Notes under the pieces: model-generated | The model's input: the letters and a program-made list of their open reading frames with translations, nothing else | What the model was told of the DNA's origin: nothing | Database searches by the model: none | Position numbers and translations under genes: made by a program | Part shown: in pieces, positions 11,762 to 41,667 of the stretch | Position numbering within the stretch: the first letter of the stretch is position 1 | How the letters are laid out: every line of letters begins with the position of its first letter | From: a virus | Reading direction: 5' to 3' (one strand) | Virus record (IMG/VR): IMGVR_UViG_3300045051_000359 | Span: 1 to 44,379 of that record | DNA length: 44,379 nt

Positions 11762-11771
11762 GGAAAACTGG
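11762..11771 (+). promoter_or_regulatory. Late-class start-associated motif, copy 1
   Basis: GGAAAACTGG is the leftmost copy of the late motif, lying 7 nt after the radical SAM stop and 23 nt before the ATG at 11795. The bases that follow (GTAGGGCACAGGGC) resemble the degenerate second block seen after other copies. Confidence 0.6.
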
Positions 11772-12140: not shown

Positions 12141-12722
12141 ATGGAGACCACCGCCGCGCCCAAGCCGTGGGAGCAGCAGCCCGGCGAGAAGGACCGCGAC
12201 TTCGAGGCGTTTCGACTGTTCCTCTCCGGGTGCACGAAGCAGGCCGTCGCCAACGAAGACGGCCGCACCAGGCCCAGGATCCACGCGATCGCCAAGCGCT
12301 GGAACTGGGAGAGGCGCGCCGCCGCGTACCGCTTCGAGGCGGCTCCGCCCCCCCAGGACCTGCTGCCGCCTCAGGACACCGCCACGGTTCTGATCGAGAA
12401 CGTGCTGAGCGATGCGCAGGTGTCGCACCTGCAGAAGATCTCCGACTACCAGGCCCGGGCCGAACGGCTGGGCAACGCCCAGATCTCCATCGCCGGCCAG
12501 CTGCTGCAGATCGTCCAGCAGCGCATCACTGACCACCGATTGCAGAAGACCCGGCAGCTGAACGTGGAGCCGCTCATCCGCGCCGCCACCACCGCAGCAA
12601 CCACCGGCCACAAGCTCATGGGTGACGCCCTGGGCATCGAGGAGCTGTTCCTCACGATGCAGCAGCACCTGGAGCAGAACGACCCGCTTCGGCTGCCGCC
12701 GGCGCCGGCCACCACCACCTGA
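12141..12722 (+). CDS. Terminase small subunit
   Basis: The 193-residue protein has an N-terminal helix-turn-helix typical of phage TerS: KDRDFEAFRLFLSGCTKQAVA, then RIHAIAKRWNWERRAAAYRFE, where the W-x-W-x-x-R pattern is common. The remainder is helical (oligomerisation region). TerS recognises packaging DNA and regulates the large subunit. It is directly followed by TerL, whose ATG overlaps its stop (TGATG). Length is normal. No late motif precedes it; the 7-bp inverted repeat does. Confidence 0.8.
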   Translation: METTAAPKPWEQQPGEKDRDFEAFRLFLSGCTKQAVANEDGRTRPRIHAIAKRWNWERRAAAYRFEAAPPPQDLLPPQDTATVLIENVLSDAQVSHLQKISDYQARAERLGNAQISIAGQLLQIVQQRITDHRLQKTRQLNVEPLIRAATTAATTGHKLMGDALGIEELFLTMQQHLEQNDPLRLPPAPATTT

Positions 12723-14317
12723 TGGCCGTCCGGGACCTGGCGAAGCGATCCCTGCAGCGCGGCCTGGCCCGGAACTACGGCCATCAGGCCACCATCGCCG
12801 CGCTGGAGCTCAGGATTCAGGCCACATCCAACCGTCAGGCAGTCGCCACGGCGCCAGAGCGATTCCGAGATTTCATTGTCCGGGTGAAGCCGGACTACGC
12901 CTTCAACCGTTGGAGCGAGCTGCTGATCGAGTTGCTGCAGCAGGTGGCTGACGGATCCCTGAAGCGATTGATCGTCACAGTGCCGCCGCAGCACGGGAAG
13001 ACCGAGCTCGCCTCCCGTCTGTTCCCGGCCTACTACCTGACCAGGTTCCCCAACCGGTACGCCGGCCTCACCACCTACGACGGCGGGATCAGCTACGGCC
13101 TCTCCCGTGAGGCCCGCCGTTACTACAAGGCCGCAGGCGGCCAGATGGCGCCAGACAGTCAGAACGTCGGCATGTGGAACACCAGCGGCGGCGGCGGCCT
13201 CTGGGCCGCGGGCGTCGGCGGCGCGGTGACTTCCAGGCCGGCCCACCTGCTGGTAGGCGATGACTGGATCAAGGGTCAGCGGGAGGCCGATTCGCCGGCG
13301 GTGCGGAAGGACGTGCAGACCTTCTACAGCCCGACATGGAGATCCCGACTGCAGAAAGACGGCGCCATCTTCCTGATCGGCACCAGGTGGCACGCCATGG
13401 ACCTGATCGGCTACGTGCTGAAGCTGGAGGAATCCAATGGCCGGCCGGAGCACTGGACGGTGCTGGACCTGCCGGCCATCGCCGAGCCGGCGAACGAGCG
13501 GATCGTCTACCCTCCCACCTGCACGGTGCTCCGCGATTGGCGAGAGATCGGCGAAGCCCTGTGCCCGGAGCGGTACGAGCTGAAGGACCTGCTCGATCTG
13601 CAGGCATCGATGCAGCCCCGGCAGTGGGATGCCGTCTACCAGTGCCGACCGTCGGCGGCCGAGGGCAGCATATTCCGGCGCGATTGGCTGAACTGGTACG
13701 ACGCCAGTCAGCCGCTGCCGGCGTTTGATCGTGTCGTCGTCTCGCTAGATGCCACCTTCAAGGATCGGGCGACGAGCGACTTCTGTGGATTCACGGTTTG
13801 GGGACAGCAGGACCGCAACTTCTACCTGCTCGACGTGGTGAACGAGCGTGCGGATTTCAACCGAACGCTGGTGCTGCAGCAGGGGCTGATGGAGCGCTGG
13901 AAGACGGGCCTCGGGCTGGTGGAGGATGCGGCCAACGGCCCGGCGATCGTGTCGGTGCTGATCCAGCGGTTCCCAGGGATCGTCGCTGTTCGTCCCGATG
14001 GCGGCAAAGAGGCCAGGGCGTTCAGCACCCAGCCCCTGTTCGTGCAAGGCCGCGTTCACCTGCCCACCCATGCGCCATGGCTGTCCATGTACCTGGACCA
14101 GCTGCTGGCGTTCCCCGCTGGCGAGAATGATGACCTGGTGGACAGCACGACCCAGGGACTGAGGTGGCTGGCGCGCATCGGCCCTGCTCAAGTCACCGAG
14201 GTGAGCTTCGGCTATGGCGCCCCGGTGCAGCAGTTCGACATGGCGCAGGTGGAGGCCGCCGGCATGGGCTGGCCCGATGCCGTTCTCGAAGACCCCGACG
14301 CCTACTTCCCCATGTAG
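12722..14317 (+). CDS. Terminase large subunit
   Basis: The 531-residue protein shows the packaging ATPase motif VPPQHGKTELASR (Walker A deviant, about residue 87), a Walker B-like HLLVGDDWIKG, and a C-terminal RNase H-like nuclease with VVSLDATFKDRATSDFCGFTVWG (first catalytic Asp) and a later NDDLVDSTTQGLRWL (last catalytic Asp region). It powers DNA translocation into proheads and cuts concatemers. Length and gene order after TerS are typical. Confidence is high on fold and role. Confidence 0.93.
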   Translation: MAVRDLAKRSLQRGLARNYGHQATIAALELRIQATSNRQAVATAPERFRDFIVRVKPDYAFNRWSELLIELLQQVADGSLKRLIVTVPPQHGKTELASRLFPAYYLTRFPNRYAGLTTYDGGISYGLSREARRYYKAAGGQMAPDSQNVGMWNTSGGGGLWAAGVGGAVTSRPAHLLVGDDWIKGQREADSPAVRKDVQTFYSPTWRSRLQKDGAIFLIGTRWHAMDLIGYVLKLEESNGRPEHWTVLDLPAIAEPANERIVYPPTCTVLRDWREIGEALCPERYELKDLLDLQASMQPRQWDAVYQCRPSAAEGSIFRRDWLNWYDASQPLPAFDRVVVSLDATFKDRATSDFCGFTVWGQQDRNFYLLDVVNERADFNRTLVLQQGLMERWKTGLGLVEDAANGPAIVSVLIQRFPGIVAVRPDGGKEARAFSTQPLFVQGRVHLPTHAPWLSMYLDQLLAFPAGENDDLVDSTTQGLRWLARIGPAQVTEVSFGYGAPVQQFDMAQVEAAGMGWPDAVLEDPDAYFPM

Positions 14318-14330
14318 GACCTCCTCACCC

Positions 14331-15110
14331 ATGGCCACCACCACCCGCCGCCGCACCCGCCGGCCCCCTGCCACAGCTGCTGATCAGTCGAAGCTCGGGA
14401 CGTTCCCACCACCGACCGACATCTCGGAGGATCTGGCCGTGGCCAACCTCCGACTGGCATCCGATCGAGCGAGGAAGTTCGCCGCCAAGGCCAAGATGGA
14501 CGGCATCGTGGCCGACCTCGAGGCGGTGGCCTGGACCGGGCTGCTCAACGCCTGCCGGCGCTACAGCCCCGACCGGCTCAACCCGGCAACGGGCAAGCCC
14601 TACGCCATCAGCACGGTGGCGGTGCCGTTCATCGATGGCGCCATGCGCCGGTACCTGCGCGACAAGGGGCACCCGATCAAGTTCCCGAACGAGTGGCGGG
14701 AGAAGGCGCCGCGGGCCCGGCGCGAGCTGCTCAGCGGCAAGCGGACGATCGAGGAGGCGGCCGAGATCGTCGGCATGGATCCCCTCGACCTGGGGGAGAT
14801 GCTCCACAGCATGGGCCCCACCGGCGAGATCCAGGAGGAGCAGTTCCAATCCCCGGGGCCTGATGCCGAGGTGCCGGATGAGGAGGGCCAGGCGGCGCTG
14901 GCGGCCGAGCTGCAGCTGGCCGAGGCCGCGCTCGCCAGGCTGGGCGATGACCGGGCGCTGCTGGAGGAGTGGTGGGACAACCCGAAGCGCCGCGCTGCAC
15001 CGAGCGGCCCGCTGCAGCAGTTCCAGCGCCGCGCCAGGAAGATCCGCGCCAACGATGCCCAGCCGGAGAGCTATGCGCAGGGGAAGCTGGGCGTGCTGCC
15101 GGAAAACTGA
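14331..15110 (+). CDS. Sigma-70-like factor encoded in the late operon
   Basis: The 259-residue protein has a clear sigma-70 region 2 at about residues 33-112: DLAVANLRLASDRARKFA, then ADLEAVAWTGLLNACRRYSP, then YAISTVAVPFIDGAMRRYLRDKG. This matches the core-binding and -10-reading helices of group 3 sigma factors. HPIKFPNEWREKAPRARREL and IEEAAEIVGMDPLDLGEML (113-160) look like region 3. The C-terminus is acidic, then basic, and I see no region 4 (-35 reader). It lies between terminase and portal, and its last codons and stop (PEN, TGA) are themselves a GGAAAACTGA motif. I infer a phage sigma factor directing host polymerase to that motif, by analogy with T4 gp55, which also lacks a typical region 4. 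A structural or DNA-binding role is the alternative. Confidence 0.7.
   Translation: MATTTRRRTRRPPATAADQSKLGTFPPPTDISEDLAVANLRLASDRARKFAAKAKMDGIVADLEAVAWTGLLNACRRYSPDRLNPATGKPYAISTVAVPFIDGAMRRYLRDKGHPIKFPNEWREKAPRARRELLSGKRTIEEAAEIVGMDPLDLGEMLHSMGPTGEIQEEQFQSPGPDAEVPDEEGQAALAAELQLAEAALARLGDDRALLEEWWDNPKRRAAPSGPLQQFQRRARKIRANDAQPESYAQGKLGVLPEN
15101..15110 (+). promoter_or_regulatory. Late-class start-associated motif, copy 2
   Basis: GGAAAACTGA forms the last codons and stop of the sigma-like gene and lies 23 nt before the portal ATG at 15134. Confidence 0.65.
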
Positions 15111-18477: not shown

Positions 18478-18487
18478 GGAAAACTCA
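18478..18487 (+). promoter_or_regulatory. Late-class start-associated motif, variant
   Basis: GGAAAACTCA differs by one base from the consensus and lies 32 nt before the ATG at 18520. The following GTGCACACGCCCG resembles the weak second block of other copies. It would restart late expression after the HNH cassette. Confidence 0.45.
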
Positions 18488-23966: not shown

Positions 23967-23991
23967 GCCCCGGCTTCGGCTGGGGCTTTTT
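23967..23991 (+). terminator. Rho-independent terminator after the tail tube gene
   Basis: GCCCCGGC, TTCG loop, GCTGGGGC then TTTTT: an 8-bp stem with one wobble pair and a T run, 24 nt after the stop. A late motif follows immediately, so transcription would need to restart. Confidence 0.85.
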
Positions 23992-24000
23992 CATGCTGGC

Positions 24001-24010
24001 GGAAAACTGA
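24001..24010 (+). promoter_or_regulatory. Late-class start-associated motif, copy after terminator
   Basis: GGAAAACTGA starts 9 nt past the T run of the terminator and ends 26 nt before the ATG at 24037. The second block reads CCACCCGGC. Its place right after a terminator is the best single argument that the motif starts transcription. Confidence 0.65.
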
Positions 24011-24036: not shown

Positions 24037-24273
24037 ATGGCTGATGCGATTGCCCTTTCCATGGCGGCGGAGTTCGAGACCGAACGCATCGGCCGCCTGA
24101 TCGACGCGACCGATGACCCGGGCCAGCTGCGGAAGATCTGCCGGATGATGCTCCAGGGCTGGATGACGCAGCGGGCGGCCAGCGAGTGGGCAATCCGGCA
24201 GGCCGCCGCGCCGCTGCAGGCGCCGGGCAGGGCCGCCGACCTGATGCCGCCCTGGGACGACCCGCTGCGATGA
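24037..24273 (+). CDS. Small cyanophage/cyanobacterial-type protein, unknown
   Basis: The 78-residue protein MADAIALSMAAEFETERIGRLIDATDDPGQLRKICRMMLQGWMTQRAASEWAIRQ is an almost all-helical protein of a type I associate with small conserved picocyanobacterial proteins. The opening LSMAAEFETERI also faintly recalls NblA, the phycobilisome degradation adaptor, but the lengths and core residues do not settle it. It follows a late motif and overlaps the next gene (ATGA). In tail context it may be a minor tail or a host-directed protein. Confidence 0.55.
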   Translation: MADAIALSMAAEFETERIGRLIDATDDPGQLRKICRMMLQGWMTQRAASEWAIRQAAAPLQAPGRAADLMPPWDDPLR

Positions 24274-24701
24274 CCACCGCCGAGCTCTACGACCTCCTGG
24301 CCGGTGACACCGCCCTGGGTGCCCTGCTGGGGACGTTCACGTTCCGCGATGGCACCACGGCGCCGGCGCTGAGCAGGCTGTGGCCGAACGAACCGCGGGA
24401 CCATCACACACGCTGCAGCGGGGTGGAGGTGTCGATCGGCCGGCTGCCGGCGACGCCATCGCGGGGCCTGCTGACCGGCGAGACGATGGGCAGCACGATC
24501 ATCCGGATGTTCGTCACCCAGTGGGCGGTGCCGGCCGGTGATGCCCACCACCTCGATGCCGCCGTGGAGCGGATCCTGGTGCTGCTGCAAGGCCAGGCCG
24601 AGGCGATCCCGGCGGGGCTGCCCGATGGCCTGACCGGTCTGGGGCAGGTGGTGATCCGCTACGTCGGCGCGGAGGAGCAGCTGGCGGGGCCGGAAAACTG
24701 A
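24270..24701 (+). CDS. Minor tail protein candidate
   Basis: The 143-residue protein TTAELYDLLAGDTALGALLGTFTF... with IIRMFVTQWAVPAGDAHHLDAAVERILVLLQGQAEA has the alternating helix-sheet layout of tail terminator/completion proteins (lambda U-like), a family of similar size found near the tube gene. The evidence is mainly length, layout and position. It ends AGPEN, where the stop codon is the TGA of a late motif. Confidence 0.5.
   Translation: MTTAELYDLLAGDTALGALLGTFTFRDGTTAPALSRLWPNEPRDHHTRCSGVEVSIGRLPATPSRGLLTGETMGSTIIRMFVTQWAVPAGDAHHLDAAVERILVLLQGQAEAIPAGLPDGLTGLGQVVIRYVGAEEQLAGPEN
24692..24701 (+). promoter_or_regulatory. Late-class start-associated motif, before tape measure
   Basis: GGAAAACTGA contains the stop codon of the preceding gene and lies 20 nt before the TTG at 24722. 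The second block CATAGCACCCGGC is the clearest example. Confidence 0.65.
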
Positions 24702-31737: not shown

Positions 31738-31747
31738 GGAAAACTGA
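31738..31747 (+). promoter_or_regulatory. Late-class start-associated motif
   Basis: GGAAAACTGA, 8 nt after the tail-tip stop and 21 nt before the GTG at 31769, followed by GTAGGCGCCCGGC. Confidence 0.65.
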
Positions 31748-33360: not shown

Positions 33361-33370
33361 GGAAAACTGA
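33361..33370 (+). promoter_or_regulatory. Late-class start-associated motif, before scaffold
   Basis: GGAAAACTGA, 18 nt before the ATG at 33389 and 7 nt after the preceding stop. Confidence 0.65.
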
Positions 33371-34221: not shown

Positions 34222-34231
34222 GGAAAACTGT
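34222..34231 (+). promoter_or_regulatory. Late-class start-associated motif, before capsid gene
   Basis: GGAAAACTGT, 8 nt after the scaffold stop but 83 nt before the capsid ATG. This is the only copy with a long leader, and that leader contains a hairpin. Confidence 0.55.
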
Positions 34232-36184: not shown

Positions 36185-37821
36185 TCGACTGCACCCTGCA
36201 CCTCCCCGGGCTGTTCCACACCCAGGAGACCGAAGCCTTCGACCACTGCGCCTTCACCGGCAAGGTGCGGCGGTTCGTCCCGATGATGCGTGCCCTCGGC
36301 TGGCGGGTCATCCTCTACAGCAACGAGGGCACCACCGTCGATGCGACGGAACACGTCCCGATGCTGAGCCGTGAGCAGTTCGCAGAGCTCTACGGGGCCA
36401 AGGCCGCCACCGCCTTCCATGGTGATCACGCCACGATCGGATCAGCAGGCCATGCCGCCTTCGAGGCGGCGCTGATCCCGGCGCTGCGGGCGCGGGTGCA
36501 GCCGGGCGACATCATCCTGCATCCCTTCGGGCACGCGCATCAGGTGCTGCTGTCCGAGTTCCCGCAGCAGGTTCACGTCGAGTCGGGCATCGGCTACCCG
36601 ATCGTGATGGACGGCACCTTCAAGGTGTTCGAGTCCTACGCCTGGATGCACTACCACCAGGGCAAGGCCGACCGCTGGGGGGCGAACTACGAGTGGGTGG
36701 TGCCCAATTACTTCGACCCCGCCGACTGGTCGCTGGGCGAGGGCACTGGCGGGTACCTGGCGTTCCTGGGCCGGATCTGCAAGGAGAAGGGCCTGGACGT
36801 GATCCGGGCGATCGCTGATCACTCGCCGCTGCCGATCGTGCTGCATGGCCAGGGCGATGCCTCGCAATGGCAGCACCCGATGATCCGGTACGCGGGGCCC
36901 ATTGTGGGGCGTGAGCGGGCGCGGTTCCTAGGCGGCGCCATGGCGGCGCTGATGCCCACCCAGTTCGTCGAGCCGTTCGGGGGGTCCGGTGTCGAGGCCC
37001 TGCTGTGCGGCACACCGCTGATTGCCTCCGACTGGGGGGCGTTCACCGAGACCGTGATGCCCGGTGTGAATGGCTTCCGGCCGCGGACGCTGCAGGGCTG
37101 GCTGGATGCGATCGACGGGGCCCAGATCCTGGATCGTTCGGCGATTGCTGCGGCGGCCCGCGCCCGGTACTGCCTGGCGACGGTGGGCGAGCAGTACGAC
37201 CGGATCTTCCGCGACCTGCTGGACCTGCGCGGGGCGGGCTGGTACACGCTGCGGGACCAGCCTGCGACAGAGATCAGCTACGAGCGGATCGATGCGGAGG
37301 AGGGCCCGTTCGCTGAGCGGCTGGCGCAGTGGATCGCGGAGACTGTCGGGCCGGCCACGGCGCTGGACATCGGCTGCGGCCCCGGCACCTACGTCAGAGC
37401 CCTTCGCCGCCACGGGATCGCCGCTGAGGGCATCGATGCAGACCCTCGCGTGGAGGGCGTCGAGCACCTTCACCAGTGGTCGCTGCTGGATGACCCTGGC
37501 ATTGAGTCCGAGCTGGTGCTGTGCCTGGAGGTGGCCGAACACATCGAGCCCGCCCTGGGGCCGGACGTGGCCGCCGCGGTGGCTGCTGCGGTGCTGCCCG
37601 GCGGCATGCTGATCTGGACTGCAGCAGCGCCCGGGCAGGGCGGCAGCGGCCACATCAACTGCCAGCCACGGGAGCACTGGCTGGCGCTGCTGGAGGCCCA
37701 GGGCCTCGTCCATTGCCCGGCTGCGGAGGACAGCCTGCGGGCCTTCGCCCGCAACGGCTACCACCTCGGCTGGTTCCCCCAGAACCTGATCGTGCTGCGG
37801 AGGCCGGCGCCGGAAAACTGA
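36172..37821 (+). CDS. Glycosyltransferase-methyltransferase fusion
   Basis: The 549-residue protein has two enzyme domains. Residues about 1-340 are a GT-B glycosyltransferase (LGRICKEKGLDVIRAI, LHGQGD, and the E-x7-E region EPFGGSGVEALLCGTPLIASDWGAFTE near residue 267). Residues about 375-545 are a class I SAM methyltransferase (ALDIGCGPGTYVRAL near 395, LCLEVAEHI, VLPGGMLIWTAA). Such a fusion would add and methylate a sugar. Its place between capsid/decoration and fibre genes points to glycosylation of a virion protein, which is inferred. It ends PAPEN with the TGA of a late motif. Confidence 0.83.
   Translation: MGRVIDCTLHLPGLFHTQETEAFDHCAFTGKVRRFVPMMRALGWRVILYSNEGTTVDATEHVPMLSREQFAELYGAKAATAFHGDHATIGSAGHAAFEAALIPALRARVQPGDIILHPFGHAHQVLLSEFPQQVHVESGIGYPIVMDGTFKVFESYAWMHYHQGKADRWGANYEWVVPNYFDPADWSLGEGTGGYLAFLGRICKEKGLDVIRAIADHSPLPIVLHGQGDASQWQHPMIRYAGPIVGRERARFLGGAMAALMPTQFVEPFGGSGVEALLCGTPLIASDWGAFTETVMPGVNGFRPRTLQGWLDAIDGAQILDRSAIAAAARARYCLATVGEQYDRIFRDLLDLRGAGWYTLRDQPATEISYERIDAEEGPFAERLAQWIAETVGPATALDIGCGPGTYVRALRRHGIAAEGIDADPRVEGVEHLHQWSLLDDPGIESELVLCLEVAEHIEPALGPDVAAAVAAAVLPGGMLIWTAAAPGQGGSGHINCQPREHWLALLEAQGLVHCPAAEDSLRAFARNGYHLGWFPQNLIVLRRPAPEN
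37812..37821 (+). promoter_or_regulatory. Late-class start-associated motif, directly before a start codon
   Basis: GGAAAACTGA holds the previous gene's stop and is only 3 nt from the ATG at 37825, much closer than other copies. This one does not fit a simple promoter unless the transcript is leaderless or starts inside the gene. Confidence 0.55.
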
Positions 37822-40882: not shown

Positions 40883-40892
40883 GGAAAACTGG
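40883..40892 (+). promoter_or_regulatory. Late-class start-associated motif, before lysis cassette
   Basis: GGAAAACTGG, 29 nt before the ATG at 40922 and 18 nt after the previous stop. Confidence 0.6.
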
Positions 40893-41645: not shown

Positions 41646-41667
41646 TCAGTTTCCCGGGGAAAACTGA
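41646..41667. promoter_or_regulatory. Divergent late-class motif pair forming a palindrome
   Basis: On the plus strand GGAAAACTGA occupies 41658-41667, 23 nt before the holin ATG. On the minus strand GGGAAACTGA runs 41655-41646, 19 nt before the leftward gene start at 41626. Together they make an almost perfect 22-bp palindrome centred on CCCGGG, one motif per divergent gene. Confidence 0.65.

Follow-up and report, generated by a model that had tools for sequence, protein, structure and literature searches.

In phage T4 the late sigma protein gp55 carries a C-terminal epitope for the sliding clamp behind a divergent linker (PMC2988020), and the promoters that it serves have no −35 element (PMC7892883). 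Bacterial clamp-binding proteins display QL(S/D)LF at their C terminus (PMC9690074). In the cyanophages, ORF003 of P-SS2 was reported as a group 3 sigma factor whose regulon is unknown (Sullivan et al. 2009, PMC2784084). The sigma factor described here is encoded by a 44,379-base IMG/VR virus record that was analysed over its whole length and is called the window below. It belongs to the same family as P-SS2 ORF003 and the annotated homologs in S-CBS2 and S-CRES1-3, with which it shares the place after TerL and the presence of the signal GGNANNCTR ahead of late genes. P-SS2 ORF003 itself has no C-terminal QxxLF tail, and neither the motif, nor the loss of region 4.2, nor the tail is described in PMC2784084. 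We consider it quite likely, from sequence data alone, that these proteins are late sigma factors reading promoters composed of a −10 element only; in most relatives of the window protein they would in addition be tethered to the sliding clamp.

The gene set of the window is siphophage-like and includes TerS/TerL, portal, scaffold, capsid, tape measure, collagen-like fibre and endolysin genes; its TerL and capsid are closest to those of cyanophages P-SS2, S-CBS2 and S-CRES. The sigma gene (14,331–15,110, plus strand) is a real ORF coding for 259 amino acids. It lies between TerL and portal, and the TerS-TerL-sigma order (TerS at 12,141–12,722 and TerL at 12,722–14,317, plus strand) is kept in S-CRES1, S-CRES3, S-CBS2 and P-SS2. 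Two PHROG sigma-factor families match residues 33–158 of the protein (1.7e-16 and 2.3e-15). The lone sequence was too divergent for a Pfam search, which returned no match, and Sigma70_r2 (PF04542) was only weakly detected on it (E = 0.0074 at 14,463–14,666). Aligned relatives were the remedy: five out of six matched PF04542 (best 9e-10) and their profile retrieved SigF (1l0o_C; 1.4e-11) and SigB (1.4e-10) among solved structures. As judged from its sequence, the product belongs to the group-3 (SigF/SigB-like) sigma factors and possesses region 2 as well as a region 3 helix-turn-helix. The bacterial SigF/SigB group-3 factors (1l0o, 8x6g) are its closest solved sequences and have the same order of regions 2 and 3, but they retain region 4 as well as a −35 element, unlike the cyanophage protein. 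Relatives were collected from IMG/VR and one MAG, giving 63 dereplicated sequences; counts of C-terminal tails rest on 61 complete relatives. A search of genome contigs yielded a single relative, in that MAG labelled Proteobacteria. TerL also adjoins a much shorter sigma gene in distant contigs; such proteins of 171–182 amino acids, without the C-terminal domain, follow TerL in L053, L060 and L070 (G013–G015) and in G023.

Region 2 of the window protein (residues 33–111; 14,427–14,663, plus strand) coincides with the PF04542 and SigF profile matches and was modelled by AlphaFold2 with a pLDDT of about 90. It is followed on the same strand by region 3.0/3.1-like helices (residues 112–160; 14,664–14,810), also confidently modelled, where the alignment to residues 80–181 of SigF (1l0o) extends through region 3 and agrees with helices predicted at residues 120–134, 140–147 and 151–160, which meets the criterion for a region 3 helix-turn-helix. 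Beyond them the model has a loop of low confidence, then three helices that form a domain in the place of sigma-4 (residues 184–242; 14,880–15,056), and finally a disordered tail (15,066–15,107; pLDDT below 50 over residues 246–259). Sigma factors were returned by Foldseek with alignments that cover nearly the whole query; their low global TM-scores most likely reflect the free placement of the domains with respect to one another. Searching the sigma genes of the phages examined with Pfam Sigma70_r4 (PF04545) gave nothing over the cut-off and one weak match. On its own this result carries little weight: the search has limited sensitivity and also missed a recognisable-looking helix-turn-helix in the early sigma of these phages. 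The alignment of the larger family profile with SigF extends to residue 218 of 243, reaching region 4.1 but not 4.2. Sequence and model together support the loss of the −35-reading 4.2 helix-turn-helix, with a degenerate sigma-4-like helical relic left in its place. As the criterion for region 4.2 is not met, the protein is filed as a sigma-70 family member that lost 4.2 and not as a typical group-3 sigma factor. The original prediction, made by eye from the letters, had placed region 2 at about residues 33–112 followed by a region-3-like helix-turn-helix. Both hold, and the sigma-70 match that it called for is significant through PHROG and the relatives, if weak for Sigma70_r2 on the window sequence alone. 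Its statement that region 4 is missing stands for a recognisable −35-reading 4.2 helix-turn-helix and not for the helical relic, and for this reason we avoid the wording “no region 4”.

The same prediction had drawn attention to a late motif, which proved real. The form found in the window, GGAAAACTG, is that of one lineage for the conserved signal GGNANNCTR; it occurs in 10 copies, all on the plus strand and none on the other, where 0.12 were expected and none of 100 shuffles reached this number. Eight copies are found 28–39 nt before a start codon. They are located at 11,762–11,770 (33 nt before ATG 11,795 of a small gene ahead of TerS), 15,101–15,109 (33 nt before the portal ATG 15,134; conserved in contigs L009 and L029), 24,001–24,009 (36 nt before ATG 24,037), 24,692–24,700 (30 nt before the tape-measure TTG 24,722), 31,738–31,746 (31 nt before GTG 31,769), 33,361–33,369 (28 nt before the scaffold ATG 33,389), 40,883–40,891 (39 nt before ATG 40,922) and 41,658–41,666 (33 nt before ATG 41,691, upstream of the endolysin). 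The two others are at 34,222–34,230, 93 nt before the major capsid ATG 34,315, and at 37,812–37,820, 13 nt before the doubtful start ATG 37,825, the true start being possibly further downstream. A variant copy, GGAAAACTC, is present at 18,478–18,486 (plus strand), 42 nt before ATG 18,520. The predicted intrinsic terminator directly ahead of the copy at 24,001 was confirmed at 23,967–23,986 (plus strand). The motif and the A that follows it contain the TGA that terminates the preceding ORF at 15,101–15,110, 24,692–24,701, 33,361–33,370 and 37,812–37,821, so that the ends of these proteins are shaped by the promoter (the sigma factor ends with PEN). At 41,646–41,667 two copies are arranged head-to-head in an inverted repeat (TCAGTTTCCCGGGGAAAACTGA) and are perhaps a divergent pair. 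An operator or ParB site was also considered for the motif and rejected, since it is non-palindromic and strand-biased. Scanning the collection for the exact motif of the window followed by ATG gave 22 contigs, with L009 and L029 as the only relatives; the remaining ones look like chance single copies.

GGNANNCTR was first recognised by inspecting the sequences that precede structural genes in the relatives. It is present in all 11 phages examined that have a full-size sigma gene (the window, S-CRES1, S-CRES3, S-CBS2, P-SS2 and six IMG/VR contigs), 28–33 nt before start codons. The four annotated cyanophages carry it between −45 and −20 in 23–26 genes each, with a peak at −28 to −33. Five cyanophages that lack a TerL-linked sigma gene (S-CBS1, S-CBS3, S-CBS4, MinS1 and S-ESS1) either do not have it or show no enrichment, including S-CBS1 and S-CBS3 whose sole sigma factor is RpoD-like. 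The predicted co-occurrence of gene and motif was therefore observed. The motif was not found in G013 and G014, the two short-sigma phages examined, whose very short sigma factors may read a different element. A de novo search returned GGNANNCTR as the top motif in 10 of the 11 phages with full-size sigma (the window, S-CRES1, S-CRES3, S-CBS2, G003, G009, G010, G011, G017 and G020); the top motif of P-SS2 is TTGACA, a host-type −35 sequence that defines a separate promoter class. GGNANNCTR was not the top motif in the controls S-ESS1, MinS1 and S-CBS4. Gene starts matter for this search: in the window the motif came out on top with hand-picked starts and only degenerately with automatic gene calls, and a codon-model gene caller was used for the IMG/VR contigs as a crude ORF-based one hid the motif on GC-rich contigs. 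Over the 63 contigs and the window, GGNANNCTR was counted 88 times at −42 to −24 compared to 10–28 times for six control patterns. In 21 of the 63 relatives a GGNANNCTG copy, usually GGTA(G/A)ACTG, precedes the sigma gene itself, from which we infer that autoregulation is possible.

Several properties of the motif are those of a promoter. It precedes 62 of 142 late/packaging genes versus seven of 85 genes of the replication module (p = 6e-9). Motif sites are found behind T-run terminators more often (13/96) than other gene starts (17/369; p = 0.004). The distance from the fixed A to the fixed T is four bases, a spacing that is also the one of TATAAT and is known from −10 recognition. There is almost no constraint on positions 3, 5 and 6, a pattern shared with −10 elements. 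At position 15, seven bases beyond the T, 79% of the sites have a purine (p = 3e-8), with pyrimidines next. Upstream of the GG no −35 partner is conserved across 97 sites, where only a weak preference for T two bases before the GG was seen, in line with the earlier remark that no fixed −35/−10 pair was visible. The sequence data fit a −10 element without a −35 partner.

From the computed features (sigma homology, domain loss, the motif with its position, co-occurrence and late-gene bias, and the terminal peptide) the following mechanism can be proposed. With region 2 as its contact, the sigma factor would associate with the core RNA polymerase of the cyanobacterial host and guide this enzyme to late promoters that consist of a −10 element only, −14 G G N A N N C T R −6, which in the window reads GGAAAACTG. 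Region 2 would read A(−11) and T(−7) as flipped-out bases, and region 3.0 would make an extended −10 contact with the GG; several SigF/SigB group-3 sigma factors use −10 elements that start with GG. Transcription would begin about 7 nt after the T, leaving leaders of about 14–19 nt. Because the −35-reading helix-turn-helix is lost, the holoenzyme would need another anchoring. In most relatives the C-terminal QxxLF may tether it to the sliding clamp, either that of the host or, in one relative, the phage's own, coupling late transcription to replication in the manner of T4 gp55. The reading of GGNANNCTR by the sigma factor, the start site and the clamp step are inferences for which there are no transcript start or binding data.

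GGNANNCTR could be a promoter element and yet be read by the host sigma factor or by a phage RpoD-like one, the TerL-linked sigma doing something else. The marine phages and P-SS2 do encode a second, RpoD-like sigma factor, S-CRES1, S-CRES3, S-CBS2 and P-SS2 carrying two sigma genes each, which counts against the late-sigma model, and the copies ahead of the sigma gene (GGTAGACTG) resemble a TAnnnT −10 element. However, S-CBS1 and S-CBS3 have only the RpoD-like factor and lack the motif, no second sigma gene was found in the window (a record that may be a fragment), P-SS2 has its separate TTGACA-type promoter class, and the motif tracks the TerL-linked sigma even though the hosts are related. 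We hold this reading to be improbable, while noting that the choice between the two phage sigma factors is inferred and rests on co-occurrence. The close and tight spacing of 28–33 nt to start codons, also a point against the late-sigma model, would suit an RNA-level element unrelated to the sigma factor, such as a translation enhancer or a processing site, and Shine-Dalgarno-like sites are indeed less frequent in genes with the motif (18/96) than in the others (110/369; p = 0.03). Against such an element speak the sites that follow terminators, favour late genes and track the presence of the sigma gene, the −10-like A/T spacing, the purine at the expected +1 and the nearly free positions 3, 5 and 6; moreover, the capsid copy of the window is 93 nt away from its start codon. 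It appears very improbable, and reading of a −10-only promoter by the TerL-linked sigma factor remains the preferred interpretation.

Its clamp step depends on the QxxLF peptide, found at the C terminus of 38 of the 61 complete relatives (QGSLF, QASLF, QPSLF and similar) and in only three of the 667 other proteins annotated in eight phages. The conservation of Q, L and F within the selected tail set is partly due to the way the set was built, and the fraction over a whole clade was therefore used: 35 of the 38 members whose core has 70% or more identity to that of S-CRES1 have the peptide. One of the three exceptions is the S-CBS2 sigma, which has a QGSLF ending in another frame behind its annotated stop codon (L011:20300–20760), an early stop that is either a sequence error or a real frameshift. 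In a quick tree of the sigma core, which has some long branches, QxxLF is distributed on two deep branches with few losses. The tail is absent from P-SS2 and two further clades. More distant relatives on the side of the window have EQLGLF, EQLALF or EQMGF near their end. The window protein itself ends with AQGKLGVLPEN, and that of L029 with EALGLLPEN; its tail is a degenerate candidate without a canonical clamp peptide, and its clamp step is uncertain. No clamp gene was found within the 44-kb window record. The relative G003 (contig IMGVR_UViG_3300031787_000115) encodes a full-length DnaN-type clamp of 388 amino acids (L150:11487–12653, minus strand; G003:C1) along with the late sigma. It is conceivable, if rather unlikely, that the sigma factor reads the motif but that QxxLF is not a clamp peptide; instead, the sigma-4-like relic would hold on to the beta flap, or another phage protein would provide the anchoring. 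The clades without a tail and the presence of a helical relic at the sigma-4 place speak for this possibility. Against it, a QxxLF that closes the protein after a variable linker is similar to the clamp motif published for bacteria (PMC9690074) and repeats the anatomy of T4 gp55, and QLGLF and QLALF occur in distant relatives. A sliding-clamp-binding peptide in many relatives is the reading we retain; it is well supported by the sequences, with tethering itself inferred. The clamp step is not universal, since QxxLF is missing from P-SS2 and about ten relatives that do have the motif.

With the T4 gp55/gp45/gp33 system the cyanophage proteins have in common a region-2 sigma, predicted late promoters reduced to the −10 element and no reading of a −35 sequence and, for most relatives, a variable linker followed by a C-terminal candidate clamp peptide. 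They differ by being SigF/SigB-like with a region 3, the homology with gp55 being limited to sigma region 2. The clamp would be of the bacterial DnaN type instead of gp45. The late −10 element of T4, TATAAATA, is unlike GGNANNCTR. No gp55 appeared among the listed structure-sequence or fold matches of the cyanophage sigma, and a scan of the tails of annotated proteins pointed to no further protein, comparable to gp33, whose C terminus forms a convincing clamp peptide. The cyanophage system resembles T4 late transcription in outline and is not a member of that family. The parallel with gp55 in the original prediction is supported for the −10-only promoters; it had not seen the strongest likeness, the clamp tail, which is degenerate in the window. 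We lean, without much assurance, towards a second, independently assembled clamp-tethered late system, in which a SigF-like factor has acquired a clamp tail of the bacterial type and no longer has its −35 reader, and late genes fire best on DNA with loaded DnaN. Set beside T4, the sigma factor may combine gp55 and a gp33-like flap-binding relic in one natural fusion. A literature search found no description of the motif or of the tail, with subscription papers mostly outside its scope, as was the S-CBS genome paper. The system announced as undescribed is so, within that search, for these two features, while the class of the sigma gene was already reported for P-SS2 (PMC2784084). Cyanosiphophages would gain a defined late regulon and promoter, and the question of what the P-SS2 group-3 sigma reads would have an answer. 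Being short and predictive, the promoter allows candidate late genes to be listed for any genome that has the sigma gene.

The second, RpoD-like sigma genes are positioned beside ssb in S-CRES1 (L010:4757–5533), S-CBS2 (L011:10931–11716) and P-SS2 (L024:26981–27835). Such an early factor together with the late one suggests a two-step sigma cascade. Directly 5′ of the tape measure gene of the window, ORFs 24,037–24,273 and 24,186–24,701 overlap in different frames and look like tail assembly chaperones produced by programmed frameshift.
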